Virus record (IMG/VR): IMGVR_UViG_3300021962_000217
Location: 1-42,531 of that record
Strand: one strand, 5' to 3'
DNA length: 42,531 nucleotides
DNA from: a virus
Position numbers and translations under genes: made by a program. This document shows positions 8,877 to 14,872 of the stretch, one piece after another. Numbering within the stretch: position 1 is the stretch's first letter; every line of letters begins with the position of its first letter. Under the pieces are notes generated by a model. That model did no database searches and was not told the DNA's origin. It was given only the letters and a program-made list of their open reading frames with translations.

Positions 8877-9596
8877 ATGCCTTTACCTAAGATTTCTACG
8901 CCAACTTATGAACTTGAGTTGCCTTCAACTGGACAAAAAATTAAGTATAGACCTTTTCTTGTAAAAGAAGAAAAACTCCTAGTTCTTGCATTAGAATCTG
9001 AAGACACTAAACAGATTACTAATGCAATTAAAGTTGTTATTAAAAATTGTATTGAAACAAAAGGAATAAAAGTAGAGTCACTTCCAACTTTTGATATTGA
9101 GTATCTCTTTCTGAATATTCGTGGAAAGTCGGTAGGAGAAGAAATTGAAGTTAATATTATTTGTCCTGATGATGAGGAAACAACCGTTCCAATAAGTATT
9201 AATGTTGATGATATTAAAGTTCAAAAGAGTTCAGATCACAGCAATAAAATTAAACTTGACGATTCTATCATGATGGAAATGAAGTATCCATCTCTGGATC
9301 AGTTTATTAAGAGTAACTTTGATATTTCATCTAATAGTACAATAGATCAATCATTTGAGTTGATTGCATCCTGTATTGGTAAGATTTTCACAGAAGATGA
9401 AGTTTGGGTTGCAGAAGATGTAACTAAAAAAGAGTTGATGGAATTTTTGGATCAAATGAATACATCTCAATTTAAAGAGATTGAAAAGTTTTTTGAAACC
9501 ATGCCTAAACTTTCTCACAAGATTAAAGTATTAAATCCAAACACGAAAGTAGAAAGTGAAGTTGTTTTAGAAGGGTTATCCAGTTTTTTCGCATAG
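8877..9596 (+). CDS. gp26: gp26-like baseplate hub protein
   Basis: A 239-residue member of the T4 gp26 baseplate family. The opening PLPKISTPTYELELPSTGQK and IKYRPFLVKEEKLLVLALES are the family hallmark, followed by DTKQITNAIKVVIKNCIETK, EYLFLNIRGKSVGE, a divergent nucleic-acid-free beta part and a C-terminal helical half (SLDQFIKSNFD, ELMEFLDQMNTSQFKEIEKFFETMPKL). T4 gp26 helps assemble the central hub. The last codons read Ser-Phe-Phe-Ala-stop over T TTT TTC GCA TAG. That is a canonical -1 slippery heptamer, and the -1 frame stays open into the next small ORF (to 9778), so a longer fusion product is likely. A late box lies 27 bases upstream. Confidence 0.88.
   Translation: MPLPKISTPTYELELPSTGQKIKYRPFLVKEEKLLVLALESEDTKQITNAIKVVIKNCIETKGIKVESLPTFDIEYLFLNIRGKSVGEEIEVNIICPDDEETTVPISINVDDIKVQKSSDHSNKIKLDDSIMMEMKYPSLDQFIKSNFDISSNSTIDQSFELIASCIGKIFTEDEVWVAEDVTKKELMEFLDQMNTSQFKEIEKFFETMPKLSHKIKVLNPNTKVESEVVLEGLSSFFA
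9571..9590 (+). promoter_or_regulatory. Putative programmed -1 frameshift signal (SD-like element plus slippery heptamer)
   Basis: The slippery heptamer T TTT TTC (9584-9590) is in the correct phase relative to gp26. It is preceded 8 bases earlier by an AAGGG Shine-Dalgarno-like element (9571-9575), the same geometry as the dnaX-type stimulator. The gp26 stop TAG is at 9594-9596. The -1 frame is open from the heptamer to TAA at 9776-9778. A 9-base hairpin at 9611-9633 lies 20 bases downstream. Confidence 0.6.
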
Positions 9597-9607
9597 GAAT
9601 GTCTCAT

Positions 9608-9778
9608 ATGAACCTGGAGAGTTACTTCAGGTTAAATTTTTCTTTGATACAGTTCCATAAATATTCATTAACTGAGATTGAAAACATGATACCTTGGGAA
9701 AGAGACATTTACGTTGGTCTTCTCAAGAATCATTTAGAAGAAGAAGAACTCAAACAACAACAGCAACAGAATAGATAA
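9608..9778 (+). CDS. Small tail/baseplate assembly chaperone-like ORF (gp51 position), possible frameshift partner of gp26
   Basis: A 56-residue ORF in the -1 frame relative to gp26: FRLNFSLIQFHKYSLTEIE, then MIPWERDIYVGLLKNHLEEE and a Gln-rich tail. The pattern YSLTEIExMxPWxRDIYxxLL...EEE is that of second ORFs of tail-assembly chaperone pairs, usually reached by a -1 frameshift. In T4 the gene after 26 is 51, a hub assembly factor, so a gp51-like role is a reasonable inference although T4 gp51 is much longer. Two ATGs are possible (9599 and 9608). The latter has AGGA 9 bases upstream, so independent initiation is feasible as well. It contains a late promoter box at 9656-9663. The next gene starts 1 base after its stop. 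Confidence 0.75.
   Translation: MNLESYFRLNFSLIQFHKYSLTEIENMIPWERDIYVGLLKNHLEEEELKQQQQQNR
9656..9663 (+). promoter_or_regulatory. Late promoter box CATAAATA inside the small ORF, reading toward 9780
   Basis: CATAAATA followed by TTCATTAAC, 116 bases before the ATG at 9780 and inside the chaperone-like ORF. A plausible internal start for the large tail genes. Motif only. Confidence 0.4.
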
Positions 9779-9779
9779 C

Positions 9780-12017
9780 ATGGCTCCAGTATCCGAAAAA
9801 GTAGATGAAAGGATTCTAAGGTTACTGGGCCTTGATTTTGTTGGCGATCTTGATTATGGAACTTATCTGACCTTACTTAATGAAGCAATATTTTCTGGTA
9901 GAAGTAGACTACCTGCAGAAGAACTTGCATTATTATCTAACGAAAAGAAAAGAGTAAGAGGCAAACAAGGTAGATTTAAACCACAAAAACAAAAGATAAC
10001 AGCAGATAAGTTTGCAACAACCAAGTTTTTAAAACCAGTTGTTCAACCAATCTCAACTCCTCTTTTACCTGCACAGGTTCAAACTCCACAAGTCCAAGGA
10101 GTAAATCTAACTCCACTTCAAGAACCTTTAGATTCAATTAAAAATACTTTAGATGCATTTTTAAAATTTAGAAAAGGTTCCGACGAGCAAGAGAGAAGAG
10201 CTTATGAAGCTCAAAGAAGAGCAAAAAGAGAAGCAGTATTAGAAAATGTTCAAAAAGGAATGTCGGCAGTTTCAAATGCTGTTAAAACTTTTATATCACC
10301 ATTTCAAGGTATTGTAGATAAAATTTGGAGATTTGTTTTCTTTACTTTATTGGGTAGAACATTTACTCAATTGATAGGTTGGTTTAGTGATCCAAAAAAT
10401 ACTCAAAAGGTTCAGGTTCTTCAAAGGTTTTTTAAAGATTGGTGGCCTACACTTTTAGGTGCAGCAGTTTTATTCTTCACTCCTTTTGGTAGATTTGTAC
10501 GAGGAATTCTGAAAATTGTTGGTGGATTAACTGGAAGATTAGTTGCACAAATACCAAAACTTGGTGGCGCAATTGGTGTACTAAGAATGGTTGCATCTCG
10601 ACATCCTTTACTTGCCACTTTGGCTGTTGGTGCAGCTGCAGCAGGTGGTATTGCAGCAACTGTTAGTTACTTCAATAAACAACAAAAGAAAGAGTCTGAA
10701 GATCAAGAAGTATTAAATGCACAACAACAGGTTCAACAATTTTCTTCTGGTGGTTCTATTTTAAAATCTTTATTTGGATTCAGTGGTGGTAATCCATATG
10801 CACAGTTATTTGGTTATGGTGGAATCACAAATGATACAGGTCAAAGAATCTCTGGATTTGGTCCAGATACTCAATTGATTGCTGCACAACCTGGAGAAAT
10901 TGTTATCAATAAAAGAACTGTTGATGCAGTTGGTGCAGATACATTTTTAAATCTTAATCGTTATTATGGTGGACCTGGAGCAAACCAACCAAAATTAGGA
11001 AGACTATTTAATACAGGTGGAATGGTTGGTGGACAATCTTCTTTGTTAAATTCTAGAGCACTTCATATTTTTAATCGTTTAAGATCAAGAGGATTGTCTC
11101 CAACAGCTGCGATGGGAATTGTTGCTAATATTGGAGTTGAAACTGGTTATACTTATAGTCCATCAACAATGCAACAAGGTGGAGGTCCAGGTAGAGGGAT
11201 AGTTCAATGGGAAAGTGGAGGAAGGTTTGATAGCGATAGAATCAATTTGCAAGAATTTGCAAGATCACGAAATAAATCTTGGAATGATTTGAATACTCAA
11301 GTAGATTTTATTGTTCATGAACTTAATCATCATCCAGAATTTAAACCACTAAAATTTGCTTTAAATCAAGCAAAAAATACACAAGAAGCAACACAATTAT
11401 TTTTAACTAGATATGAAAAGGCAGGAGTTAGTCATTTAGATAGGAGACTTGCTGTTGGTCAAGAACTTGAACAGAAGTTAAAAAGACCTCCTGCTGCAAA
11501 AACAAAAGATAAGAAAGAAGAAGAAAGGCAACAAAGACCTTGGTATGATCCCTTTGGTTTTTTTGGGGGTGCTGCTGCAGTTCAAAAGAAAGAGGGTGGT
11601 GGAGTTTTTGATGTAACATCAAAAACAGGATTTGAAATTCCAAAATCAATGTTTCCTGGTGTTGATACTCAATTTGTTCCACTTGCTCTTCAACCAGGAG
11701 AAAAAGGTTTTATTATCCCTAAGGAAGCAGTTAAAAATGGTGCAGTTCCTGAGATTGAAAAACTTGTCGCCAATCTTGCACCAGAGTCAAACTCGGCAAA
11801 AGAACTTAAGTATCAAGCAGATCCAAAATTTCCTGAAATAAAACCACTTTCAAAAGGAAAAAGTGGAGTTAGTTATTTACCTGATATTAATCAATCTGCA
11901 GCAGGAGTTTCTGCTTCTGGTCAAGGTGGTGGTGCTCAAGTTCCACCGTTCTCTGCAATCTCACCAAAGAGTGCAAGAGGTATGCAAACAACAATCTATG
12001 ATGTTAGAGGTGTTTGA
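9780..12017 (+). CDS. Large tail protein with phage tail lysozyme domain (tape-measure or hub candidate)
   Basis: A 745-residue virion protein. Residues 1-75 form a conserved N-terminal cap (ERILRLLGLDF, GTYLTLLNEAIFSGRS, LSNEKKRVRGKQGRFKPQK). A charged helical stretch follows (residues 125-165), then three strongly hydrophobic segments at about 180-205, 220-250 and 277-300, as in tape-measure proteins. Residues about 424-575 are a phage tail lysozyme domain: SPTAAMGIVANIGVETG with catalytic Glu454, GPGRGIVQWESGGR, NSWNDL-type NKSWNDLNTQVDFIVHELN, and ATQLFLTRYEKAG. The C-terminus has an Ala/Gly/Pro-rich tail. It probably digests peptidoglycan during DNA entry. With the next gene it may share the tape-measure role of T4 gp29, which is not otherwise found here. 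Two bases separate it from the next ATG. Confidence 0.7.
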   Translation: MAPVSEKVDERILRLLGLDFVGDLDYGTYLTLLNEAIFSGRSRLPAEELALLSNEKKRVRGKQGRFKPQKQKITADKFATTKFLKPVVQPISTPLLPAQVQTPQVQGVNLTPLQEPLDSIKNTLDAFLKFRKGSDEQERRAYEAQRRAKREAVLENVQKGMSAVSNAVKTFISPFQGIVDKIWRFVFFTLLGRTFTQLIGWFSDPKNTQKVQVLQRFFKDWWPTLLGAAVLFFTPFGRFVRGILKIVGGLTGRLVAQIPKLGGAIGVLRMVASRHPLLATLAVGAAAAGGIAATVSYFNKQQKKESEDQEVLNAQQQVQQFSSGGSILKSLFGFSGGNPYAQLFGYGGITNDTGQRISGFGPDTQLIAAQPGEIVINKRTVDAVGADTFLNLNRYYGGPGANQPKLGRLFNTGGMVGGQSSLLNSRALHIFNRLRSRGLSPTAAMGIVANIGVETGYTYSPSTMQQGGGPGRGIVQWESGGRFDSDRINLQEFARSRNKSWNDLNTQVDFIVHELNHHPEFKPLKFALNQAKNTQEATQLFLTRYEKAGVSHLDRRLAVGQELEQKLKRPPAAKTKDKKEEERQQRPWYDPFGFFGGAAAVQKKEGGGVFDVTSKTGFEIPKSMFPGVDTQFVPLALQPGEKGFIIPKEAVKNGAVPEIEKLVANLAPESNSAKELKYQADPKFPEIKPLSKGKSGVSYLPDINQSAAGVSASGQGGGAQVPPFSAISPKSARGMQTTIYDVRGV

Positions 12018-12019
12018 TA

Positions 12020-14872
12020 ATGGCAATTAATCCACAAAAATTTCTACCTCCTGCAAAAATATCATCACCTCTTGCTAATTTTTCTGGACTATCAATCCAG
12101 AAGAAAACTACTGAAGTTAATAGAATATCACAGTTATCTTTAAAATATAATGAACAAAACGTTGATATAGTAAAAAAATCTTTAGTTGATGTTGATACTC
12201 TTTTAAAAACCGTTTTAACTGAAGATAGGAACACTACAGAACTAAAAAGAAAAAGAAAAGAGCGTGAGGAGTTTGAAGAAAGAGAATCAAAATTAGAAGT
12301 TCCTAAAGAGCAGAAAAAATTTAGATTACCTCAAGTCTCTCTTCCGGGAATGAGTTTTCTGGATAGAGTTAAAAGATTTTTACTATTCACTGGAATCGGT
12401 TGGTTATTTACAAACTTTCAGGATCAACTACCTAAACTCCTTGGTATCGTAAAGATTATTACTCCTCTTTATGGAGTTGTTGAAAATGTATTTAAGTTTA
12501 TACTTTCTTCTGTTGTTAATTTTATTGAACGTGGATATGAAACTTACGATAAAATTAGAGCACTTGTAAAAAGTGTTGGTGGAGAAGGAGCACAAAAAAG
12601 TTTTGATGCTCTATCGTCAAATCTAAACGAATATATTAATTATATTTTGATTGGTGGAATGGCACTCACCGGTGCCATTGATGCTTTTGCAAGTAACGTA
12701 AGTAAATTCAAACCTCAACCTCAAGTAAGAGAACCTGCTATTGGAGGTAGACCTAGAGTTACTAGAGGTGTAGGTGGAACATCTATAAGAGCAGGTGCTG
12801 CACGAATTACAACAACTGGTGGCGAAGTAGTTGAGAGAAATATTGCAAAAAATATACTCAGAAGAACTGTCAAACCAGCATTATCCAGATTGCCTGTTGT
12901 CGGTGCTTTAATTGAGTTTGGTCTTTCTTGGGCTCTTGGAGATCCTGTAGGTAAAGCAGCGTTCCGAGGTATTGGTTCTCTGATTGTTGGTGCAGTTGGA
13001 ACAGCAATTGGTGGTCCAATAGGTGCTGCAATTGGTGGAATACTAGGTGGAGAAGTTGGTGGTAGATTATACGATACATTTTTTGGTGGTAAAAAACCTG
13101 CAGCATATCGAAATGGTGGAAGAGTTATCAAAGCTTATGCTAAGGGTGGTGGTATTTTAGGTGATTATGGATTAGGAAGAACTCTTGAAGTTGAGAGATC
13201 TAAAAAACCAGCACCACCACAACAATCTACACAACCGGGTAGAGATGTTGGTGGACAAAGAGAAATCAAAAAACTTTTTCCAAATCCAAATGAAAACATT
13301 TTAACATATGGAAAACCAAATCCATTCTATGCACTTGAAAATACTGCAAGTGATTTTAAGAGTGCTCCATATGGTCTTGGATCTTTAATGGGTGGTGCGA
13401 TTGATGTTGCTCTTGGACAAAAATTATCAGACACTACAATCTTAAATGCGAGTATAGGACTTGAAAATATGTTTTATGCTAATTATGATAAAGATAAAAA
13501 TTATATTGATGTTCGTTCTATTATCTTTGGCGTTATTAAGAGTGCTGCTGATTCTGCATTGAACAATATTCAAAATGAATTGAGTAAAGGTAAGAGAAAG
13601 AAAGAAGAAAAAGAAAAACCAGCAGATCAAACTCAAAGTTCTCAAAGAGATGTAATGAGACCTGGTGGCACAGTAGGAGTTGATGTTGGTGGAGTGATAG
13701 TAGGATATGTTGGTTCCACCGGAAGGAGTAGTGGACCTCATATTCATATAGAAACTGGTGATGGATATAGTGGAAAGGGTGGACAAATACCTAAGTCAAT
13801 TTTGGATAATATAATTGTTGATGGAAAACCTTTATCTTCATATGCTCAAGGTGATGGAATTGGTGCAGGCAGAGGTCATCAAGGTTTTGACTATGCTATT
13901 AGAAGTGGCGCTCCAATTGTTATTAAAGGTGGTCTTAAATTTGTAGAATATGATGAAGGTTACAATGCTGGATATGGTAATTCTCTAATATTATCAGATT
14001 CATCTGGAAGAAAATATTTGATAGGACATTTATCTGGTGGTCCAAGTGATCCTAAAAAAATTAAAGAACTTCAAGAAAAACAAAAAGCAACTGCAAAATT
14101 AGATGATACTTCAGGATCAAAGGTATCTGAACCTTCCGCTCCTGTTGGATCTGGGCAAATAACAAGTATACAAAAACAAGCTCTAAATATACTTTCCAAA
14201 TATGAGTCTGCCAGTTCTGGTGGATATAATGCAGTAAATCAGATAGGAGTTGCTGGTGGTAGAGGAGTATTAGGTTATGCTGGTGACTTCAGACAGATGA
14301 AGCAGCATAAAGGAAGAGCACTCACTGATATGACCATTGCCGAAATTATGGCTTTACAAGCAGAAAAACCAGGAATGTCTAATGATGAATGGATAAAACA
14401 GGGAAGATTACATGCTGTAGGAAGGTATCAATTTATTGGTGGTACTTTACCTGGAGTTGTAGCAAGAGCAGGAGTTCCAACTTCTGCAAAATTTACTCCC
14501 GAAGTTCAAGATAAACTTGCATTGCAATATCTAAAGGAAGCTGGAATTGGTGCTTGGGTAGGTCCAGCAGATAATGCAACAAAAGCAGAAAGAGCAATCA
14601 TAGAACAAGCAAGAAAAGCTCAAAAAGGTGGAGACATATCTAGAATTTCTTCAAGTAATAATTATATTCCAAAGCAACCATCAAAATACAATACAAAGTC
14701 AATTGAAATGTATCCAGACTATTCAGAGAGCGGAGCAGGAACAAGAGTCGTTATTCAAAGGATTTTTATTGAGAAAAAGGTTCCTATGCCTATGAAAGGA
14801 AAGTCAAGAACTGACTTTATGATTGCCGGTGGTGGAAGTGTAAATAATGATATGTTAGTATACAGAGGATAA
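12020..14872 (+). CDS. Large tail protein with permuted M23 peptidase and lysozyme-like domains
   Basis: About 950 residues; the ATG at 12020 was preferred to the TTG at 12014. The N-terminal region resembles its neighbour in plan: a charged helical stretch (residues 70-100), hydrophobic segments (LDRVKRFLLFTGIGWLFTNF, INYILIGGMALTG) and a glycine-zipper stretch (about 319-352). Residues about 560-690 hold M23 metallopeptidase motifs in reversed order: HxH (574, 576 in GPHIHIE) comes first, then HxxxD (620, 624 in GHQGFDYA), GYGNSLIL and GHLSGG (His670). Residues about 718-880 form a lysozyme-like domain with KYESASSGGYNAVN (Glu729), LTDMTIAEIMALQ and HAVGRYQFIGGTL. A cell-wall-penetrating tail protein, probably in or near the tail tip or tape measure. 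Followed one base later by the hub gene. Confidence 0.7.
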   Translation: MAINPQKFLPPAKISSPLANFSGLSIQKKTTEVNRISQLSLKYNEQNVDIVKKSLVDVDTLLKTVLTEDRNTTELKRKRKEREEFEERESKLEVPKEQKKFRLPQVSLPGMSFLDRVKRFLLFTGIGWLFTNFQDQLPKLLGIVKIITPLYGVVENVFKFILSSVVNFIERGYETYDKIRALVKSVGGEGAQKSFDALSSNLNEYINYILIGGMALTGAIDAFASNVSKFKPQPQVREPAIGGRPRVTRGVGGTSIRAGAARITTTGGEVVERNIAKNILRRTVKPALSRLPVVGALIEFGLSWALGDPVGKAAFRGIGSLIVGAVGTAIGGPIGAAIGGILGGEVGGRLYDTFFGGKKPAAYRNGGRVIKAYAKGGGILGDYGLGRTLEVERSKKPAPPQQSTQPGRDVGGQREIKKLFPNPNENILTYGKPNPFYALENTASDFKSAPYGLGSLMGGAIDVALGQKLSDTTILNASIGLENMFYANYDKDKNYIDVRSIIFGVIKSAADSALNNIQNELSKGKRKKEEKEKPADQTQSSQRDVMRPGGTVGVDVGGVIVGYVGSTGRSSGPHIHIETGDGYSGKGGQIPKSILDNIIVDGKPLSSYAQGDGIGAGRGHQGFDYAIRSGAPIVIKGGLKFVEYDEGYNAGYGNSLILSDSSGRKYLIGHLSGGPSDPKKIKELQEKQKATAKLDDTSGSKVSEPSAPVGSGQITSIQKQALNILSKYESASSGGYNAVNQIGVAGGRGVLGYAGDFRQMKQHKGRALTDMTIAEIMALQAEKPGMSNDEWIKQGRLHAVGRYQFIGGTLPGVVARAGVPTSAKFTPEVQDKLALQYLKEAGIGAWVGPADNATKAERAIIEQARKAQKGGDISRISSSNNYIPKQPSKYNTKSIEMYPDYSESGAGTRVVIQRIFIEKKVPMPMKGKSRTDFMIAGGGSVNNDMLVYRG

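Follow-up and report, generated by a model that had tools for sequence, protein, structure and literature searches.

A conserved slippery sequence at the end of gp26 points to -1 frameshifting into a gp51-like domain in T4-like phages

Does the small reading frame that overlaps the 3′ end of gp26 in a marine T4-like phage encode a protein of its own, or is it read as a C-terminal extension of gp26 after a -1 ribosomal frameshift? We addressed this question in the window, the whole 42,531-nt stretch of IMG/VR record IMGVR_UViG_3300021962_000217, where all features described here lie on the plus strand. The gp26 ORF (8877..9596, 239 aa) matches PF12322 (T4_baseplate, E 9e-76) and PHROG 150 (‘baseplate hub’, E 3e-81). 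A gene caller would place a 59-aa ORF at 9599..9778, beginning at ATG 9599. This ORF matches PHROG 634, ‘baseplate hub assembly catalyst’ (gp51), with an E value of 1.6e-27, and also the C-terminal end of PHROG 150 (positions 241-280 of 282, E 8e-5), indicating that both parts lie in one chain in some database proteins.

The junction reads ...GAA GGG TTA TCC AGT TTT TTC GCA TAG GAATGTCTCAT ATG and contains a T_TTT_TTC heptamer (9584..9590) in phase with the gp26 0 frame. A preliminary description of the locus had pointed to this heptamer and its phase, and had set it four bases before the stop; the distance is in fact three (GCA), followed by the TAG at 9594..9596. From the slip the -1 frame reads FF-RIGMSHMNLESYF...QQQQQNR and stays open until the TAA at 9776-9778. 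The resulting gp51-like extension, or TAC-C (9590..9778), comprises 62 aa after the slip, in agreement with the roughly 60 open codons described earlier, and is marked as coding by PHROG 634, the C-terminus of PHROG 150 and purifying selection. The candidate upstream stimulator noted in the same description, a Shine-Dalgarno (SD)-like AAGGG, is likewise present at 9571..9575, 8 nt before the heptamer. Of the window's 43 ORFs that reach 100 aa, three carry an in-phase X_XXY_YYZ within 45 nt of their end, and in-phase T_TTT_TTC turns up in the whole set only once, at the end of gp26.

We gathered gp26 relatives from IMG/VR and phage records and removed identical junctions, leaving 276 loci with full context, in each of which the extension was located by profile search. 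The set spans phages of Synechococcus, Prochlorococcus, Methylophilales, Sinorhizobium, Caulobacter, Pseudomonas, Delftia, Aeromonas and Vibrio (KVP40). The gp51-like part lies in the -1 frame at 273 of the 276 distinct junctions, and each of these also has T_TTT_TT[C/T/A] in phase close to the end of gp26 (TTTTTTC in 255, TTTTTTT in 11 and TTTTTTA in 7). Clustering at 85% and 75% nucleotide identity was used to limit the effect of shared ancestry; with one locus per 75% cluster, heptamer and -1 extension are found together in 81/81 representatives. Codon usage at the site is equally constrained. The Phe-Phe pair is written TTTTTC in 93% of cases at the heptamer vs 5% at other gp26 Phe-Phe pairs, and the codon preceding TTT has T as its third base in 273/273 loci, across eight codons and seven amino acids (Ser, Asp, Asn, Ala, Thr, Gly and His), against a background of 71% for Ser/Asp/Asn codons. 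This conservation puts the signal far beyond chance. In six loci, L293 and L313 among them, the heptamer lies 31 nt before the gp26 stop rather than 10, which lengthens the overlap of the two frames; the extensions of L293 and L313 have no ATG nearby. The comparison across cyanomyoviruses that the preliminary description proposed thus finds the heptamer, the SD-like element and the open -1 frame all conserved.

Three loci fall outside the 273. Stenotrophomonas phage BUCT608 has the heptamer followed by a -1 extension that resembles the others on visual inspection but escaped the profile. A Klebsiella T4-type phage has a gp26 without the heptamer. In Vibrio phage K444 (L096:3055-3261), gp26 ends ACG CTT TTT GCG TAATGATGG, without a slippery heptamer; the extension (by eye ...NAIMPWHLMSL...) is kept in the -1 frame, and an ATG overlaps the gp26 stop (TAATGATG). 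The K444 genome has only one PF12322 gene; separate translation or a different shift signal is possible there. An extension kept in the -1 frame without the heptamer counts against the frameshift reading. A search of IMG/VR for further junctions of the K444 kind returned none.

The sequences flanking the heptamer carry further signals. Across relatives, the SD-like element is mostly found 8-11 nt upstream of the heptamer. Because A[AG]GG results wherever Glu is followed by Gly, the presence of the element is by itself weak evidence; its support comes from codon choice, with more GGG and GAG, and from a test of anti-SD pairing, which is stronger than in synonymous recodings (-7.8 vs -6.4 kcal/mol, 173 loci). 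On the 3′ side, the 40 nt beginning 4 nt after the heptamer are more structured than shuffled sequences (mean z -1.87, n=81), with values of -0.6 to +0.2 elsewhere. Predicted folding energy in this region is -8.2 vs -4.1 kcal/mol for synonymous versions, with a p value of 3e-11 that, like all those given, is optimistic owing to common ancestry among the loci; control positions show weak or no excess.

In the window, where downstream structure has a z of -3.5 relative to synonymous recodings, the candidate stimulator is a 9-bp RNA hairpin, AACCTGGAG-AGTTA-CTTCAGGTT (9611..9633), located 20 nt after the heptamer. This distance exceeds the usual one and counts against the frameshift reading. Different hairpins occupy the downstream position in many lineages. 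Within the window clade (58 loci), 32 loci carry a 5-bp hairpin 10 nt after the heptamer and 16, including the window, the 9-bp hairpin at 20 nt; none has both and ten have neither. The two hairpins fall within 9601-9633 and equivalent positions, and the one 10 nt after the heptamer is GGTCC-ATAT-GGACC. RNAalifold over the whole window clade yielded no consensus structure because two alternative hairpins are in use, a problem that was resolved by folding loci singly and comparing each with synonymous recodings. All nine pairs of the 9-bp hairpin are kept in 13 loci and two pairs show two-sided changes, an illustration rather than a test, as these loci were chosen for carrying the hairpin. Some excess structure is also seen in the window clade in the extension just after the hairpin zone (z -1.2), and the exact boundary is uncertain. 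The downstream hairpin, absent from the preliminary description, appears to be part of the signal. A broader proposal, for and against which we see the case as evenly balanced, is that the T4-like TAC signal has three parts (SD-like element, T_TTT_TTC and hairpin), in which the slippery site hardly varies while the hairpin repeatedly arises anew or changes position from lineage to lineage; this would imply that selection maintains a set TAC-NC:TAC-N ratio.

The most serious competing explanation is that the downstream ORF forms a gene in its own right, gp51: translation would start afresh at 9608 (or 9599), possibly through termination-reinitiation, and no fused protein would arise. Most database records annotate it so, and many genomes list a separate ‘baseplate hub assembly catalyst’; K444, with its overlapping ATG and no heptamer, also fits. 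The window itself offers a possible independent ATG at 9608..9610 with an AGGA 9 nt upstream, the only usable AGGA for either of its two ATGs. The preliminary description had cautioned that translation could begin here, and the AGGA stands; generality does not, as this ATG is not conserved in relatives. No ATG occurs within ten codons after the slip in 131/273 loci or in the first 12 codons in 93/273; a further 125 have one that lacks an SD-like 4-mer, and only in 55/273, the window included, is an ATG preceded by such a 4-mer at a spacing of 4-12 nt. In records of S-H9-1, S-CAM4 and ACG-2014d (L081, L082 and L083 among others) the gp51-like frame has been left unannotated, presumably because it has no good start codon.

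Selection on the frame argues in the same direction. Codons 5-10 of the -1 frame precede most possible starts, and there pN/pS amounts to 0.18 for the window clade and 0.41 for loci without an early ATG (first ten codons), compared to about 1-2 for the other two frames over the same codons. The gp51 frame is therefore under purifying selection even upstream of any ATG, which a separate gene would not account for, and such a gene would also leave the invariant heptamer unexplained. Some separate initiation at 9608 is possible in the window, and frameshifting and separate initiation could coexist, but separate initiation is not the conserved route. We consider an independent gene without fusion improbable as an account of the junction.

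The organization of PF12322 genes provides a further argument against a stand-alone gp51. Seven complete genomes of the frameshift type (P-SSM2, P-HM1, KVP40, S-SM1, S-ShM2, Cr30 and phiM19) have one PF12322 gene each, as does the 42.5-kb window record, and T4 and a Klebsiella relative have two, gp26 and gp51, which are divergently transcribed in both. The Klebsiella gp51 consists of PF12322 over residues 1-202 followed by the extension over residues 200-249, in frame and at the predicted junction, and an alignment of T4-type gp51 shows the same ending. T4-type gp51 is thus a natural in-frame fusion, and the frameshift product predicted for the window has the architecture of gp51.

Transcription itself could in principle slip on the T run and yield shifted mRNAs that encode the fusion, and the homopolymer it would need is present, with 7-8 T in a few loci. 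Yet a run of six T is short for polymerase slippage, and the run is exactly six in 262/273 loci and never longer than eight, which argues against this mechanism. The phase of the heptamer, the SD-like element and the downstream hairpin are also features of a ribosomal signal, leaving transcriptional slippage very unlikely. Least credible of all, with hardly any probability left to it, is that coincidence, or gene overlap together with a protein-level demand for Phe-Phe, accounts for the T run and the open -1 frame: the Phe-Phe pair is itself conserved and Glu-Gly codons write the SD-like motif automatically, but the reading is already contradicted by the choice of TTT TTC and of a preceding third-base T across several amino acids, and by RNA structure and SD pairing above synonymous expectation.

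The explanation that we regard as very probable is that gp26 is a short TAC-N and that -1 frameshifting makes a TAC-NC of about 300 aa, in the style of lambda G/GT. Most ribosomes would end at TAG 9594. A fraction would be delayed between the mRNA hairpin in front and the SD-like AAGGG at the rear, base-paired to 16S rRNA, and would slip back one base with two tRNA-Phe on TTT TTC (9585-9590), then read the -1 frame to 9778. The predicted product carries gp26 residues 1-238 followed by 62 residues from the gp51-like domain. If the pair acts as gpG/gpGT do in lambda, both forms would cooperate in coating the tape-measure protein, whose gene lies just downstream, and in bringing in tail-tube subunits. 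The data show the sequence of the site with its phase and its conservation, selection for coding in the -1 frame, RNA structure and SD pairing beyond expectation, and a T4-type gp51 that is fused in frame; that slippage takes place, its rate and the chaperone action are inferred. The observation made in the preliminary description is confirmed, and its frameshift interpretation is, at the level of sequence, strongly supported.

The genomic context fits the ‘tail-chaperone-like’ label that had been given to the small ORF: the pair is homologous to a recognized TAC family of T4-like phages (gp26/gp51, PF12322), and the two overlapping ORFs lie directly upstream of a putative tape-measure gene (9780..12017, 745 aa), whose identity is taken from its position and a weak match to the tape-measure family PHROG 9570 (E 2.7e-13). 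The protein also carries a tail lysozyme domain (PF18013, E 2e-28). In Cr30 a downstream gene is annotated as the tape-measure protein. The window region 9780-14872 holds two consecutive large tail genes, of 745 and 952 aa, both with cell-wall-degrading domains (tail lysozyme PF18013 and M23 peptidase-like, respectively), and either may be the tape measure. The putative tape measure and T4 gp29 share no PHROG family, and their alignment is too divergent to link them. An AlphaFold2 model of gp26 is confident (pLDDT 87.5). A Foldseek search of this model against the PDB gave no significant match (the HK97 TAC, 2ob9, is listed at E 1.9, prob 0.18), nor did a fold search with gp51, and a PDB sequence search found nothing. 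On gene order, the isoform pair and homology, the two products are probably the tail-assembly chaperone pair of T4-like phages.

The abstract of a 2022 study by Vladimirov and colleagues reportedly states that frameshifting has been kept in several T4-like groups and that T4 relies on separate genes, 26 and 51. The PRFect paper (PMC10885494) cites Vladimirov, Gautam & Davidson 2022 (Virology 566:9-15), which identified the TAC genes of T4-like phages, for T4-like TACs, with short and fused genes separate in some; a second paper (PMC12846349) cites it for -1 frameshift signals of the polyT type ‘in TAC-N genes of T4-like phages’. The statement in the preliminary description that T4 gp26 and gp51 are not usually described in this way is, to judge from these two citing papers, out of date. 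As the study is represented there, its T4-like TACs share with the window a gp26-type TAC-N, a gp51-type C-terminal domain and a polyT slippery site ending TAC-N, so the present case is new neither in kind nor in mechanism. New here are the scale of conservation, the stimulators and one Vibrio phage without the heptamer; our search turned up no previous account of either the SD-like element or the variable hairpins at this junction, the 2022 study being known through the papers that cite it.

If correct, the frameshift reading would call for re-annotating hundreds of genomes of cyanophages and marine T4-like phages, in which gp26 and ‘gp51 baseplate hub assembly catalyst’ appear as two genes or gp51 is missed. 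It would also link T4 gp26 and gp51, historically called hub proteins, to tail-assembly chaperones, and would provide, in a single frameshift signal whose hairpins vary, a large natural series with which to study the control of the ratio.

The slippery sequence of lambda is G_GGA_AAG, and E. coli dnaX combines an upstream SD-like element, an A_AAA_AAG heptamer and a downstream hairpin. In the lambda model (PMC5009743), coating of the tape measure falls to the short form and recruitment of the tube protein to the long one; our comparison with gpG/gpGT makes no claim of sequence similarity, the window having T_TTT_TTC instead. A conserved -1 shift at a polyT motif, GTTTTT, also ends TAC-N in Vandenendeviridae, including Pseudomonas phage Adele (PMC12846349), which differ from the window in phage family and chaperone genes as well as in the motif. 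In T4, gp26 and gp51 are both PF12322 proteins, and gp51 ends in the same extension, joined at the matching place, but T4 obtains its long form from a separate, divergently transcribed gene and does not need a frameshift. E. coli dnaX (PMC5009743) has the same order of SD-like element, slippery heptamer and hairpin, and differs in its heptamer, gene and purpose; in the window the extension makes the longer product.
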